Shown here: piece by piece, positions 6,692-19,964 of the stretch | Position numbering within the stretch: position 1 is the first letter of the stretch | Layout of the letters: each line of letters begins with the position of its first letter | Virus record (IMG/VR): IMGVR_UViG_3300046328_000195 | Location: 1-24,517 of that record | Strand: one strand, 5' to 3' | Origin: a virus | DNA length: 24,517 bases | The notes under the pieces: generated by a model | Seen by the model: the letters and a program-made list of their open reading frames with translations, nothing else | The model's database searches: none | What the model was told of the DNA's origin: nothing | Program-made: the position numbers and the translations under genes

Positions 6692-7816
6692 TTAATTACT
6701 TAATGGTGCTTTAATTGTTTCGTGTGATTTATAATTCTCAATTTTAAAAAAGTCAGGTCTGAATTGGTCTATCTTTTCGCCAAAGGATATATTTCCTACT
6801 AATTCTGGATCTTTTAGATAATGGTACTCGTCTAAATAGGAGATACTTGGTAATTCAAAGCTTTCTCTACTAATCTGCTCCTTTGCTTGGTCAATATGAT
6901 TAGAGTACAAATGAACATCTCCTAAGTTACCTACCAACTCTTCAGGAACCATGTTTACTTCTTGAGCTATAATCTCTAGCAATAATCCATAAGAAGCAAT
7001 GTTGAACGGTAAGCCTAAAAATGTATCTACTGAACGTTGATTCCACATTAGAGAGATTGCTCGCTCAGGTATTTTAAACAGCTCCATCTCTTCGCTTAAC
7101 CCACCACCAAATGCTAATAAATCTTCTACATAAGAGTTATACCAATCTTCACCTGCTGCAAATTTTAAAAGGTCCCATCTTTCTCCGGCACTCAACTCTC
7201 TAGTATAAACTTGGAATCCATAATGACAAGGTGGAAGAACCATTTGGTCTAATTCTCCAACATTCCAAGCATTAACCATTAATCGTCTTGAATCTGGGTT
7301 TGTTTTAAGATCGTTGATTAGATTTTGAATTTGATCTATAACTTTTTCACCTACTAAAGTATGTAAACCATTATGCCCGACAGTTACAGTTTCACCCGTG
7401 CCCCACTGTCTCCATTGCTTACCGTAAATTGGTCCTAAATCACCCCATTTCTTAGCGAAATTATCATCAGTTTTTACTTTATCAATAAAATCAGATATTG
7501 ATAAAATCTTATCTGGCTCATTCCCAATCATCAGTATTTGATAATTCTTATAAGCATCACCATTCCAAATGTTACAACCATTATCCACCAAATACTTAAT
7601 ATTAGTATCACCTCTTAGGAACCAAAGTAACTCAGTTACAATTGATTTCCATGGCATCTTCTTAGTTGTAAGTAAAGGAAACCCCTCTGACATCTTATGT
7701 CGGATCTGTCTTCCAAATACTGAGACTGTCCCGGTACCTGTTCTGTCTTGCTTCACTACACCATTGTCTAAAATATCTTGTAGTAAGTCTTGGTATTGCT
7801 TATCTATTTTGTTCAT
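6692..7816 (-). CDS. thyA: Thymidylate synthase, ThyA type, with large insertions
   Basis: 374 residues against about 264 for E. coli ThyA. Recognisable parts are RTGTGT (25-30, phosphate loop), WFLRGDTN, GPIYGKQWRQW, DSRRLMVNAWN, the catalytic LPPCHYGFQVY with Cys197, NQRSVDTFLGLPFNIASYGLL and GDVHLYSNHIDQ. It methylates dUMP to dTMP with methylene-tetrahydrofolate. Two insertions explain the length: about 45 residues after NIWNGDAYK and about 50 residues (205-254) directly after the catalytic loop. It lies between an unknown gene (17-base overlap) and the dNMP kinase, so dUTPase, ThyA and kinase form a dTTP path. All core residues are intact, so it should be active. Confidence 0.96.
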   Translation of the reverse strand: MNKIDKQYQDLLQDILDNGVVKQDRTGTGTVSVFGRQIRHKMSEGFPLLTTKKMPWKSIVTELLWFLRGDTNIKYLVDNGCNIWNGDAYKNYQILMIGNEPDKILSISDFIDKVKTDDNFAKKWGDLGPIYGKQWRQWGTGETVTVGHNGLHTLVGEKVIDQIQNLINDLKTNPDSRRLMVNAWNVGELDQMVLPPCHYGFQVYTRELSAGERWDLLKFAAGEDWYNSYVEDLLAFGGGLSEEMELFKIPERAISLMWNQRSVDTFLGLPFNIASYGLLLEIIAQEVNMVPEELVGNLGDVHLYSNHIDQAKEQISRESFELPSISYLDEYHYLKDPELVGNISFGEKIDQFRPDFFKIENYKSHETIKAPLSN

Positions 7817-16634: not shown

Positions 16635-17126
16635 TTAACTATGTTTTGTGTTATTTAATATAAAGTGTAGAGTTCCTTTTGAGCTAATCCCAAATTTCTC
16701 CATAGTCTTTTTATAAGACTTGTTTTGCGAATAAAACTCTTTTACTTCAGAAGCCTGGTATTTCCTGATGTAGCTTGCGGCATTTAGTGCGTACTTTAAT
16801 CTATCTTCAGCAGGCTTATCCATATTGTTATCTGCCATAGTCCCTATAAGGATATTACCTGTACTACAGTCTGTCTTTATACTATTTTTGTGCCTAACTA
16901 CTATACCTTCTTTAAACAACTCTTCTCCATATTTTTGCATAGCTTGTATCCTATGCCAAGGCACTTTCATTGTTTTTTTACCAATCCTGACATTAATTAT
17001 TGGATACCCCTTTTCAAAAGCTACTTGAGGTCTTTTGTTTCTAGCTGTTTTTATAAATTTTCCACAATCAGATACTCTAAACCCTCTATTGTAAGCTTCT
17101 ACTAAAAATAAATTTGATTCACTCAT
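16635..17126 (-). CDS. HNH homing endonuclease-like protein
   Basis: 163 residues. Residues 57-105 hold an HNH_3-like core: VPWHRIQAM, VVRHKNS, then a late asparagine in STGNILIGTMADNN. The last 40 residues (SEVKEFYSQNKSYKKTMEKFGIS) look like the helix-turn-helix DNA-binding repeat attached to such enzymes. It lies directly downstream of the tRNA-Met gene, next to the noncoding RNA region, a usual place for free-standing homing endonucleases. It may cut a site within the tRNA/RNA region of related phages and drive its spread. It could alternatively be domesticated. Confidence 0.82.
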   Translation of the reverse strand: MSESNLFLVEAYNRGFRVSDCGKFIKTARNKRPQVAFEKGYPIINVRIGKKTMKVPWHRIQAMQKYGEELFKEGIVVRHKNSIKTDCSTGNILIGTMADNNMDKPAEDRLKYALNAASYIRKYQASEVKEFYSQNKSYKKTMEKFGISSKGTLHFILNNTKHS

Positions 17127-17141
17127 AATTTTTTATGTTAG

Positions 17142-17213
17142 TGGTCCCGGAGGATTACGATACCCCGACCTTGTCGTTATGAGCGACCTGCTCTACCGCT
17201 GAGCTACGAGACC
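17142..17213 (-). tRNA. tRNA-Met (CAU), with abnormal T-loop
   Basis: 72 nucleotides. The acceptor GGTCTCG/CGGGACC (7 bp), D-arm GCTC...GAGC and anticodon loop CTCATAA (anticodon CAT, 17181-17179) are canonical. G1-C72 pairing argues against an initiator; a lysidine-type Ile (CAU) identity is also possible. The T-arm is odd: the stem closes with T-T at 53/61 instead of G-C, and the loop is ATCGTAA, lacking the TTCRA core. CCA is not encoded. Confidence 0.75.
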
Positions 17214-17217
17214 ATTT

Positions 17218-17496
17218 GGGGAGATGTCGTTCTCCCCGGACGTGTTAGGCTGCAGATCTCATCTGTACCCCACCAAGTGTGTAAACGTTGTCGTTTAATT
17301 TTGAAATTAATTCTCCTTATTACCTACTTATTGCCAATCAATACTATTTCACCCCCAATAACACCGGCTGTTTAAGGCACAACCGATAAAGCCTAGGTCT
17401 CTGATTTCTCATCGACTCCACCACCTTGTTTATAGTTCAAGGAAACTTTTGTGGAGGTGCCGGGCTCTGCCCCCGGGTCTTGCTCAAATTCAATAA
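17218..17496 (-). ncRNA. Structured RNA, possible permuted tmRNA-like element
   Basis: No protein gene fits here. In order on the minus strand: a 5-bp hairpin with 7-base loop (CCGGG/CCCGG, 17476-17460) followed directly by CACCTCC (17459-17453); a pseudoknot (AGGC/GCCT and a 9-bp stem 17387-17379/17371-17363); GGGGGTG (17356-17350), which can pair with CACCTCC as a 7-bp acceptor stem with G3-U70, the tmRNA hallmark; CAATAA (17333-17328) able to pair with TTATTG (17496-17491); a short frame ending ...SAA-stop at 17245; and a perfect 7-bp hairpin (17237-17218). The order 3' half, spacer, 5' half, tag is that of permuted two-piece tmRNA. The T-loop and D-region do not match well, so this is a hypothesis. 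Confidence 0.35.
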
Positions 17497-17516
17497 TAAA
17501 TCAACAAATCATTTCG

Positions 17517-17587
17517 TGACTGAGGCTGGATTTGAACCAACATATAGCAGGATCTCTACTATGCTTTACCAATTACGCCACTCAATC
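17517..17587 (-). tRNA. tRNA-like gene with non-canonical anticodon loop (Ile-GAU by position)
   Basis: 71 nucleotides. Acceptor GATTGAG/CTCAGTC (7 bp), D-arm with GG, T-arm GTTGG-TTCAAAT-CCAGC fully canonical, 5-bp anticodon stem TAGTA/TGCTA. The loop is GAGATCC: position 33 is A instead of the invariant U, and 37-38 are CC. By position the anticodon would be GAT (17554-17552). A CCCCC/GGGGG hairpin (17605-17592) lies just upstream. It may be a decayed tRNA, a tRNA mimic, or a tRNA with altered decoding. Confidence 0.6.
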
Positions 17588-17688
17588 ATTTCCCCCATGT
17601 GGGGGCACTTGTCAAGGTCCGAGGTAGCGTGCTCAAGTCAAATGACTGAGCCTCGAATCTTCAATATCAAAATAACACAATAACCTAT

Positions 17689-17720
17689 AAAAAATGGCAA
17701 AGCTTGGACTGAAAATGCCA
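17689..17720 (-). terminator. Weak terminator-like hairpin inside the RNA region
   Basis: TGGCA/TGCCA (5 bp, 16-base loop) followed by six T residues on the minus strand, between two tRNA-like elements. The stem is short, so it may be leaky or only a processing signal. Confidence 0.35.
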
Positions 17721-17788
17721 CACACCTACTTTACCTGGTAGGAGTCTTTTTATGCGTACTGGTCGCAACCTACAGGACCAACCGTGAG

Positions 17789-17838
17789 ACTAGCTTCCTC
17801 CGTTGGTAGTCATCGTCCTAGTGCTAGTTCAGATGACT
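17789..17838 (-). ncRNA. Predicted pseudoknot between tRNA-like elements
   Basis: AGTCATC (17838-17832) pairs with GATGACT (17814-17808), 7 bp. Within that loop ACTAGC (17828-17823) pairs with GCTAGT (17794-17789), 6 bp, giving an H-type pseudoknot. A nested CCAAC/GTTGG stem is an alternative to the second helix. It starts 4 bases after the tRNA-like element upstream. Confidence 0.45.
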
Positions 17839-17842
17839 GCTG

Positions 17843-17915
17843 TTGTCAGGGAGGACTCGAACCTTAAAGCAACCATATAGGACTCGGCAACCACGCCTCA
17901 TTACGCCACCTGACA
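17843..17915 (-). tRNA. tRNA-like element with degenerate anticodon arm
   Basis: 73 nucleotides. Acceptor TGTCAGG/CCTGACA is a perfect 7 bp and the T-loop TTCGAGT is canonical, but the T-stem has only 3-4 pairs and the anticodon stem (GAGTC/GTTGC) has two mismatches. The loop is CTATATG, giving AUA by position. The 5' acceptor strand can also pair with TTGACAG just upstream (17940-17934). Reads as a decaying or modified tRNA. Confidence 0.45.
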
Positions 17916-17979
17916 GTTGCTTGTCTTTCCAAGCTGTCAACATTGTGCAATTAGTGGGGCACGTTGCTCATAACCATTG

Positions 17980-18086
17980 GTACCGGTGAGAGGGTCGAAC
18001 TCTCATCTGCTGACAAATTAAGAGATGCTATCTCAGTCAACGTGTTAACCCAAGGTGGTATTTATTCCCACTTACACCAACCGGTA
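17980..18086 (-). tRNA. tRNA-like element with long variable region
   Basis: 107 nucleotides. Acceptor TACCGGT/ACCGGTA (7 bp), D-arm GTGT/ATAC with GGG in the loop, and T-arm GAGAG-TTCGACC-CTCTC are good. The anticodon loop reads GGGTTAA (GTT, Asn, by position) but lacks U33 and its stem has two mismatches. About 35 nucleotides of variable region contain a nested stem (TTGAC/GTCAG around GAGAT/ATCTC). That length is not normal for tRNA-Asn. Confidence 0.5.
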
Positions 18087-18094
18087 CTCTCTTT

Positions 18095-18690
18095 TACCAA
18101 CCTGTGTCTTTCATGTAGCCTACCGAGTTATCAGTTACGGGGCTTGTACATGAGCAGGGTTTCTGATTGAGTGCAATGAGTAACGTTTTCCTACTGTAAA
18201 CCCTTATTCGGAAATTAATACACTCTACTTCTCAATTAACAGCGAGCATTGGTAAATTATTTTAGAACCCTCTCTATTAGCTGTTATACGCTCACTAGAT
18301 ACTGCCTCCCTATGAAAATAGGCTCAAGGGCTCTCACTAATAAGAGTAGGGTCACGTGGTCAAAAGCGTGCTTTACAGGATGTCGCTTTTAGCCTGACAA
18401 AATACCACTTGCTGAGAACTCATTTGTGTTGTACACCCCTATTTACGGTGTGTATGCTTTAAGGGTTCCTTTCTCAAGGGAACAACACATCTACCATTAC
18501 TGATAGTATCTTTATGTAAAGAGGAAATTATTAGTTTTCTTAAAAGCAATTTCTGCGTTACTCTTTTACAAAGGCTTCAATGTTTAACCTACTAAAGTTA
18601 TCGACTACAAGGTTAACTATAATGCGTGAGCTTTTAGCACGCTACCTGCCAGTTTGTACATAGGAACTGAAACCTTTTATAAAAACCTCA
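18095..18690 (-). ncRNA. Large structured noncoding RNA candidate (GOLLD/ROOL-like class)
   Basis: About 600 bases with no convincing reading frame on either strand, in an otherwise densely coding window. On the minus strand I find a three-way junction at 18489-18425 (TGTGTT/AACACA closing GTTCC/GGAAC and ACACC/GGTGT), a pseudoknot at 18396-18362 (CAGG/CCTG with AAAAGCG/CGCTTTT), a long-range TAACAGC/GCTGTTA stem (18286-18280/18243-18237), a CCTAT-TTTC-ATAGG hairpin, and a long hairpin at 18152-18112 (CATGTA/TACATG continued by GCC/GGC and CCG/CGG). It lies directly upstream of tRNA-like genes. GOLLD and ROOL RNAs have this size, this phage setting and this link to tRNAs. Which class, if either, cannot be decided by eye. 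Confidence 0.55.
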
Positions 18691-18696
18691 CACCCA

Positions 18697-18843
18697 TCAA
18701 GATTGGGATAAAGTACCTAATCTTATTACGTAACCTTTAGATTCAGTTATTTCATTCAAGGAATTTTTATCATACTCAACAACCATAACACCTCTTGATT
18801 GTGTTGTAACTAAATTTTTCGCCCTCAGTGGTCCATCCACCAT
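18697..18843 (-). CDS. Small protein of unknown function, 48 aa
   Basis: ATG 18843 to TGA 18697, 36 bases after the SPFH gene. 48 residues: MVDGPLRAKNLVTTQSRGVM then VVEYDKNSLNEITESKGYVI, a plausible small alpha/beta protein with a mixed composition not expected of noncoding sequence. It is the last protein gene before the RNA region. No family recognised. Confidence 0.55.
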   Translation of the reverse strand: MVDGPLRAKNLVTTQSRGVMVVEYDKNSLNEITESKGYVIRLGTLSQS

Positions 18844-18879: not shown

Positions 18880-19731
18880 TTATTTTCTATTCAACATGAT
18901 ACCTGTACCGGCACCAAAAACGTTATTAGATCCATAAGGAGATACACCTTGTTCAGCCCATACTCTCTCTGTTTCAGCTCTGTATAACTCTAACATTTTA
19001 GGCTGTGATAAAATAGCTTTTGTTTTAGCTTCGTATAAAGCTGCTTCATAGTTACCTTTAGCCAATGCTACTTTCTTTAATGCTGTTTGCTCTGCTTGTA
19101 ATGTTTGAGACTTAATAGTAGCTGTTTCTTGAATTACTCTAATCTTTGTTTCAATGGCTTTTTTATAAGATGCCGGAATTGACATTTTTAACACTGCAAT
19201 GTTGTTTAATATAAAACCCTCTTTAGCTAAAGACTTTGTCAATGTGCGTGTTACACCTGCCTCATATACATTTCTATGTTGTAGTAAACTATCTGACGCA
19301 AATCCTACTGCATTATCTAATAACTCTTTTCTTACGATATTACGAACTCTTGTATTAATCAACTCATCCATATCTACTCTATACTTTGTAAATAAAGTTG
19401 GTGCTGCTGATCGTTCTAATTGTAAATTAATTGCTACATCTAATCCAAACGTTGCTCCATCTCCTGATGTTACGTCAATATGCTCATCTGTTGGAGAATC
19501 CTCATCTACTGATGCTGTCCAAACTTTATGTTGTACAGATGTTGGATACATATAAACATCTTGTGTTGGTGGAAAATAGAAGATAAATCCCGATGCCATT
19601 TCGATGTTTGGTACACCTTTGTCATTTCCAATTTGGTCTACTACCAATGCCACTTCAGAAGAATCTGCTGTTGTACATGATGTAAACGTCATTACTAATA
19701 CTAAACTCAATAACCCTAATACTTTTTTCAT
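18880..19731 (-). CDS. SPFH/prohibitin-like lipoprotein
   Basis: 283 residues. A signal peptide (MKKVLGLLSLVLVMTFTSC) ends in a lipobox-like FTSC with Cys19. An SPFH-like domain follows: strands around FIFYFPPTQDVYMYP and DVTSGDGATFGLDVAINLQL, then NTRVRNIVRKELLD and NNIAVLKMSIPASYKKAIETKI. Next comes a helical coiled-coil region (TQTLQAEQTALKKVALAKGNYEAALYEAKTKA-like composition, about 205-245). SPFH proteins form large membrane-associated rings or lattices. A phage copy could alter the host envelope during infection, for example in superinfection exclusion, but that is inference. It follows a two-helix membrane gene by 3 bases. Confidence 0.82.
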   Translation of the reverse strand: MKKVLGLLSLVLVMTFTSCTTADSSEVALVVDQIGNDKGVPNIEMASGFIFYFPPTQDVYMYPTSVQHKVWTASVDEDSPTDEHIDVTSGDGATFGLDVAINLQLERSAAPTLFTKYRVDMDELINTRVRNIVRKELLDNAVGFASDSLLQHRNVYEAGVTRTLTKSLAKEGFILNNIAVLKMSIPASYKKAIETKIRVIQETATIKSQTLQAEQTALKKVALAKGNYEAALYEAKTKAILSQPKMLELYRAETERVWAEQGVSPYGSNNVFGAGTGIMLNRK

Positions 19732-19908: not shown

Positions 19909-19964
19909 TTTTTCTTTTTTAAAAAACACACCGTCATCAAGGTTGAAATAAGGTAGTTTACTAT

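Follow-up and report, generated by a model that had tools for sequence, protein, structure and literature searches.

Between an SPFH gene and an HNH gene, a virus record from IMG/VR carries about 1.7 kb of RNA genes, and the upstream part of this cluster (positions 18095 to 18690) raises the question of what a stretch of about 600 nucleotides (nt) contributes if it encodes no protein. The record (IMGVR_UViG_3300046328_000195; its whole length of 24,517 nt, or 24.5 kb, was analysed and is termed the window herein) carries its genes on the minus strand, including those for ribonucleotide reductase, thymidylate synthase, a DnaB-like helicase, and the SPFH lipoprotein; the SPFH gene ends at 18880 and the HNH gene starts at 17126. 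A preliminary description, made from the sequence of the window, had proposed a single structured RNA of about 600 nt, either a member of the GOLLD or ROOL RNAs or a new class. Its noncoding claim holds, since the listed open reading frames (ORFs) include no notable one on the sense strand and only two of ≥40 amino acids, one of 68 amino acids that crosses the end of the region and one of 47 amino acids, both antisense. The tRNA-adjacent phage context was likewise confirmed, as tRNA-Met, a permuted tmRNA, tRNA-Ile, and several tRNA-like pieces lie in the same cluster. The single RNA, by comparison, has to be replaced by two, termed RNA-A and RNA-B, which together with a leader of about 100 nt make up the region on the minus strand. 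The elements of the cluster are as follows.

17141 to 17213, minus strand: tRNA-Met(CAU) (ARAGORN and Rfam searches)
17245 to 17509, minus strand: phage-encoded permuted (two-piece) tmRNA (Rfam RF04321, 57.8 bits)
17516 to 17587, minus strand: tRNA-Ile(GAU) (ARAGORN and Rfam searches)
17593 to 17667, minus strand: RNA-D, a conserved 75-nt element (blastn, 84% identity; sequence)
17975 to 18090, minus strand: tRNA-like element with acceptor, T-arm, and an odd middle (sequence; missed by ARAGORN)
18093 to 18256, minus strand: RNA-B, with closing stem UUUACCAA/UUGGUAAA, P2 AUUGAG/CUCAAU, and a pseudoknot (25-sequence alignment A2)
18112 to 18152, minus strand: optional hairpin module CAUGUACAAGCCCC...GGCUACAUG of RNA-B (sequence identity to module M5 of L066)
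18263 to 18590, minus strand: RNA-A, whole element of 328 nt (covariance model R1 match at 18523 to 18326, 87.8 bits, E = 6e-20)

The tag of the window tmRNA is readable and ends in ...NDNVYTLGGVQMRSAA followed by a stop. RNA-D is structured and is located upstream of tRNA-Ile in the window and upstream of tmRNA in two other viral loci (L015 and L027). The type of tRNA-like element found at 17975 to 18090 recurs after or beside RNA-B in many phage loci; a second tRNA-like element (17840 to 17918, minus strand), also missed by ARAGORN, has a good acceptor or T-arm and an abnormal middle. The noncoding stretch at 17690 to 17840 (minus strand) shows several possible hairpins and falls within a block of about 90% identity common to L023.

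Minimum free energy revealed nothing unusual for the region, RNA-A, or RNA-B (z scores of about 0 to −1), the whole region scoring 0.01 on the minus strand and −0.72 on the plus strand, RNA-A by itself −1.04, and RNA-B by itself −1.10. Since there was neither a convincing ORF nor an unusual folding energy, the structure claim was tested by comparison. Via the neighbouring SPFH protein, 29 related viral loci were gathered, of which L015, L027, and L029 share similar short noncoding stretches despite different surroundings, while L023 is more closely related. A motif of 16 bases taken from the shared part occurred in at least 119 stretches in IMG/VR, with at least 96 of its occurrences in the fetched loci also having an upstream partner motif, and a gapped-pattern search again returned at least 119 stretches. 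After removal of duplicates, at least 120 RNA-A copies were kept for counts, so that all copy numbers are lower bounds. RNA-A has a median length of 324 nt (89 copies) and occurs in more than 100 IMG/VR viral fragments, usually with one copy per viral record: among 20 whole viral records (35 to 373 kb), 18 contained a match, 17 of them one each and the eighteenth two neighbouring partial matches.

The ends of RNA-A (5′ hairpin and 3′ end) were set by motif comparison across about 100 copies. In the window, the element is built from the following parts.

18572 to 18590, minus strand: P0, the 5′ hairpin AGG-UUAAACAUUGAAG-CCU with the conserved loop UAAACAUUGA (motif comparison)
18515 to 18570, minus strand: P1, UGUAAAAGAG with CUCUUUACA, enclosing the variable module M1 (stem-length comparison)
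18491 to 18506, minus strand: P2, hairpin CUAUC-AGUAAU-GGUAG (covariation)
18425 to 18489, minus strand: three-way junction with closing helix UGUGUUG/CAACACA, P3 UUCC/GGAA, and the variable hairpin M3 (covariation)
18413 to 18476, minus strand: pseudoknot of the P3 loop UGAGAA (18476 to 18471) with the linker UUCUCA (18418 to 18413) (sequence match)
18356 to 18408, minus strand: P4, hairpin GUGGU/ACCAC with the variable module M4 (covariation)
18267 to 18352, minus strand: P5, long-range stem ACCCU/AGGGU with an inner helix and module M5 (covariation)

Across the family, the common plan runs from P0 (AGGUUAAACAUUGAACCU) through P1, which encloses a variable module, the strand AUAAAGAUAC, P2, and the three-way junction, in which the P3 loop UUGAGAA is matched by the linker UUCUCA, to an optional P4, P5, and the 3′ end, which is usually GCUAA and reads UUCUA in the window. 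The near-invariant core comprises about 150 nt and offers four or five sockets for free hairpin modules.

This plan is borne out by covariation. In an alignment of 41 RNA-A sequences with loop interiors removed (A1; 149 columns, no gaps), 93.1% of the cells are paired, 26 pairs show double changes, and 137 cells are compensatory, compared to 28.8 in shuffles (0 of 500 shuffles reached 137); the covariation score is 0.298 vs. 0.101, and sliding the partners by 1 to 3 columns yields 0.05 to 0.09. Most of these sequences were collected with a search pattern in which part of the core is preset, and the invariance of that part is therefore overstated. In an alignment of 46 untrimmed matches (A3), which is fitted to covariance model R1, 92.0% of the cells are paired and 182 are compensatory, compared to 38 in shuffles. 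Among the 41 sequences, P2 has double changes at all five pairs and is paired in 100% of the cells, the closing helix of the junction has double changes at 6 of 7 pairs (99% paired; 7 of 7 in A3), and P4, which is absent from L063 and L130, has them at 6 of 8 pairs; P5 is 98.5% paired and includes compensatory cases such as ACCCA/UGGGU. A long form of P2 occurs in other phages. The P1 stem formed within each copy is longer than cross-sequence or shuffled stems, with variants UGUGAACA/UGUUCACA and GAUAGU/ACUAUC. The window copy belongs to this family, as it has the covarying P2, three-way junction, P4, and P5 and scores 87.8 bits. The three-way junction, the long hairpins of the minus strand, and the long-range stem of the preliminary description (18348 to 18352 with 18267 to 18271, extended by the inner helix) thus hold across homologues. 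Selection, which had also been proposed there, is shown by this comparison but not by folding energy alone, which is ordinary.

The proposed pseudoknot was found (18471 to 18476 with 18413 to 18418) but fared less clearly: UGAGAA/UUCUCA is invariant in the 41 aligned sequences, with no double changes. In copies found by the 5′ motif only, most changes keep the pairing (C to U, A to G) and a few break it. The pseudoknot is likely, being compatible with the data and near-invariant, and covariation gives no proof of it. A kissing interaction between the P0 and P2 loops (CAUU/AAUG) was judged by eye not to covary and was dropped.

Since the first RNA-A set had been chosen by its core motif, an independent search was run with a motif of the P0/P1 region, which lies outside covariance model R1; in most copies, the P0 motif precedes the core by no more than 250 nt. 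The core was recovered at E ≤ 1e-11 in 20 of 24 newly found loci. As for the remaining loci, L275 gave a weak match with a linker insertion, L278 and L283 run off the end of the locus, L274 has a degenerate sequence, and L295 lies in coding sequence; strictly counted, one of these belongs to the 24 only through a weak match. Searches of Rfam at gathering cutoffs and at E ≤ 10 gave no match over RNA-A beyond chance, the best chance match being RAGATH-9 with 17.2 bits (cutoff, 75.2), and the open-licence literature yielded no description of RNA-A, but instead work on GOLLD and ROOL and on a phage two-piece tmRNA (PMC9004378). Taken together, the data support RNA-A as a new structured RNA family without an Rfam entry, the second of the two options in the preliminary description.

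The first option, a diverged member of GOLLD or ROOL, is highly improbable. The covariance models of GOLLD (which we take to be Rfam RF01998) and ROOL gave no match at gathering cutoffs, at E ≤ 10 in the window, or at E ≤ 5 in eight other loci. The GOLLD cage is a 14-mer, and the ROOL cage is held by intermolecular kissing loops. Both RNAs form RNA-only cages and are found near tRNA islands: GOLLD is a large structured phage RNA whose variable linker can hold tRNAs and for which ribosome binding has been reported, and ROOL, a phage or prophage RNA, contains pseudoknots and a linker that is variable and disordered (PMC12286853). RNA-A resembles them in being phage borne, near tRNAs, and probably pseudoknotted, with variable inserts (PMC12286853), a context that in the case of ROOL is shared but not diagnostic. 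Its median of about 324 nt compares to about 660 nt for ROOL env-120 and more than 800 nt for many GOLLD RNAs (PMC12286853), making it less than half as long as GOLLD, and it has several swappable hairpin sockets where ROOL has one linker. Judged by model match and length, and not by helix order, RNA-A is a member of neither, and GOLLD and ROOL are its nearest analogues in context.

RNA-B is distinct from RNA-A and forms the second RNA of this kind in the cluster. It measures 95 to 169 nt over 36 distinct sequences and has a closing stem of 8 bp (UUUACUAA/UUAGUAAA in L077). In P2, the sequence is fully replaced with pairing kept (AUUGAG/CUCAAU, GUUGAAC/GUUCAAC, and GGUACG/CGUACC), and the mean length of this stem is 6.6 bp, compared to 3.5 bp in shuffled sequences. 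The pseudoknot GGGUU[U/A] with [A/U]AACCC has a U-A pair in 14 sequences and an A-U pair in 10; in the window, it is formed by GGGUUU (18203 to 18198) and AAACCC (18162 to 18157). RNA-A is followed by RNA-B in the window, L069, and L077, and the order is reversed in L018, L081, and L269.

The variable hairpins of RNA-A have medians of 36 to 80 nt and sit at fixed positions of the core. Poor alignment with varying insertions, named in the preliminary description as a sign against the structure, is therefore seen in part only: the hairpin inserts vary freely, but their sockets are fixed and the core covaries strongly. A decoy or counterdefense RNA, in which the constant core shows exchangeable hairpins that exhaust host defense or RNA-processing factors, could account for modules that are mostly unrelated between phages and that sometimes swap sockets, such as M1 of L137, which equals M4 of L143 (98% over 53 nt), and M5 of L089, which resembles M1 of L143 (94% over 31 nt; no such matches were seen in shuffled modules). 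It would also fit modules shared with RNA-B, as the CAUGUACAAGCCCC...GGCUACAUG hairpin serves as the P5 module of RNA-A in L066, L062, and L108 (33 bases of the RNA-B insert in the window are identical to M5 of L066), and the T-arm-like hairpin found in four RNA-A modules, compared to 0.18 in shuffles. However, the conserved part is the core and not the modules, and no defense partner is known, so that we consider a decoy unlikely. Rather doubtful, too, is a more general proposal in which RNA-A would be a universal chassis of unrelated phages, with a fixed pseudoknotted core and standard sockets into which functional hairpins (decoys, tRNA-like arms) are swapped, with modules that also occur in RNA-B; if true, this would add a previously undescribed modular RNA platform for host takeover.

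In three loci, HNH/NUMOD4 genes were found inside or beside RNA-A, at different points.

L018, 2105 to 2416: HNH endonuclease ORF (Pfam HNH_3)
L023, 7374 to 7712: HNH endonuclease ORF (likeness to the L018 ORF)
L027, 7157 to 7642: HNH endonuclease ORF (Pfam HNH_3)

These genes recall the homing genes of group I introns, which likewise combine a conserved core with variable peripheral hairpins and lodge HNH ORFs in some phages, and together with the spread of RNA-A over unrelated phages they could point to a ribozyme or an intron-like mobile RNA. This is quite improbable: no Rfam group I or II model matched at E values of up to 5 to 10 (up to 1 for Cellulophaga phage phi14:2), RNA-A is intergenic and interrupts no ORF on its own strand (no sense ORF runs across its core in 43 loci), it usually occurs once per genome, and HNH genes are able to invade conserved targets as free-standing genes. 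The idea of a group I intron, raised by the HNH genes and the GGGUGCUAA end, was rejected, as there was no model match and no host gene. The stop codon of the L018 HNH ORF is supplied by the RNA-A end GGTGCTAA. In L027 (7018 to 7085) and L074 (4256 to 4394, minus strand), the domain fused downstream of the P0-P1-P2 part is a different hairpin domain, which points to an exchange of domains.

RNA-A is co-oriented with its neighbors. All 90 tRNA and tmRNA genes predicted by ARAGORN within 3 kb (at least 120 copies) have its orientation, as do the flanking ORFs in 41 of 43 and 40 of 43 cases. Of 120 copies (at least 120 in all), 17 have a tmRNA within 3 kb and only 38 a tRNA or tmRNA predicted by ARAGORN within 1 kb, although many sequences are short or have tRNA-like genes that ARAGORN missed. 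In several loci, tRNA 3′ ends lie a few nucleotides before P0, and in L119 the tmRNA starts 7 nt past the end of RNA-A. The RNA-A phages of this set carry a standard or a permuted tmRNA, the latter above the cutoff in two phages besides that of the window. As an immediate same-strand neighbor, tmRNA (RF00023/RF04321) probably shares a transcript with RNA-A, but RNA-A has no tRNA-like domain, tag reading frame, or Rfam tmRNA match over its span. Within 200 nt upstream of 97 copies, the TATATTTG box, presumably a Bacteroidota-type promoter box, occurs 10 times, compared to about 1.6 expected (about 6.5-fold overrepresented). A small recurrent element (UAGCUAAGCUGUGUAAAGC...UCUGUUAGAAGCUA) was observed between promoter and RNA-A in L057, L059, L060, L076, L097, L113, L119, and L167.

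A cis-acting antitermination, processing, or stability signal of the nascent tRNA/tmRNA operon transcript would agree with an element that is always sense to the neighboring genes and tRNAs, often directly abuts a tRNA or tmRNA, and is usually present once per record. We nevertheless regard it as somewhat unlikely, as the downstream genes differ (tRNA, tmRNA, RNA-B, or ORFs), RNA-A and RNA-B swap places from locus to locus, and RNA-A is elaborate for such a role; its co-oriented genes on both sides do not place it clearly at operon starts, which rules against a cis-antiterminator there. At a probability of roughly 50%, RNA-A instead constitutes a new family of phage noncoding RNA, stable and acting in trans, that would be cut from the tRNA/tmRNA transcript and serve as a scaffold in infection. 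It would be transcribed with the tRNA/tmRNA cluster, in some cases under a TATATTTG-type promoter of its own, and could be released by RNase P and tRNA 3′ processing enzymes that mature the tRNA and tmRNA neighbors, often a few nucleotides away. Alone or with protein, RNA-A might then serve during infection as a structural scaffold keeping hairpins close to the translation machinery. The small share of copies with a predicted tRNA or tmRNA within 1 kb and the absence of double changes in the pseudoknot count against this reading.

RNA-A is also present in a cultured phage, the crAss-like Cellulophaga phage phi14:2 (KC821624, 2,913 to 3,358), where GenBank lists hypothetical ORFs, of which RefSeq withdrew those overlapping RNA-A. 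BLAST of the window RNA against INPHARED gave no match, and another family member reached phi14:2; matches in Staphylococcus phages in INPHARED fall in coding sequence and were rejected as chance. A 22-mer had zero matches in GTDB genomes, and among the 84,980 species genomes of bacteria and archaea a gapped pattern gave a single match, which lies on a phage-like contig of 20 kb from a Sphingobacteriales metagenome-assembled genome. Based on phi14:2, this contig, and the promoter motif, the carriers are apparently viruses of Bacteroidota bacteria. Their terminases are 23 to 43% identical or not alignable, except for one pair at 85%, and that of phi14:2 has no detectable similarity to those of other carriers; with terminases so diverged, either the core moved from phage to phage or an unusual constraint preserved it. 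RNA-A is constrained in its core like a ribozyme and is found in more than 100 viral contigs and in unrelated phage lineages of up to 373 kb, with no Rfam entry. As a named Cellulophaga baltica strain served as the isolation host of phi14:2, RNA-A expression, processing, and loss of function are testable, and the family bears on the common ground of large tRNA-linked phage RNAs (GOLLD and ROOL) and on why phages keep RNA scaffolds.

Two further observations concern the window outside the region. A signal around AUCUUGAUGG.UGUG, which may be a promoter or a terminator, is repeated between genes at about 18697 to 18710 and at 19930 to 19955 and is also found in L023, L042, L076, and L108. The thymidylate synthase (6692 to 7816, minus strand) is about 100 amino acids longer than the Pfam profile, which suggests an insertion.
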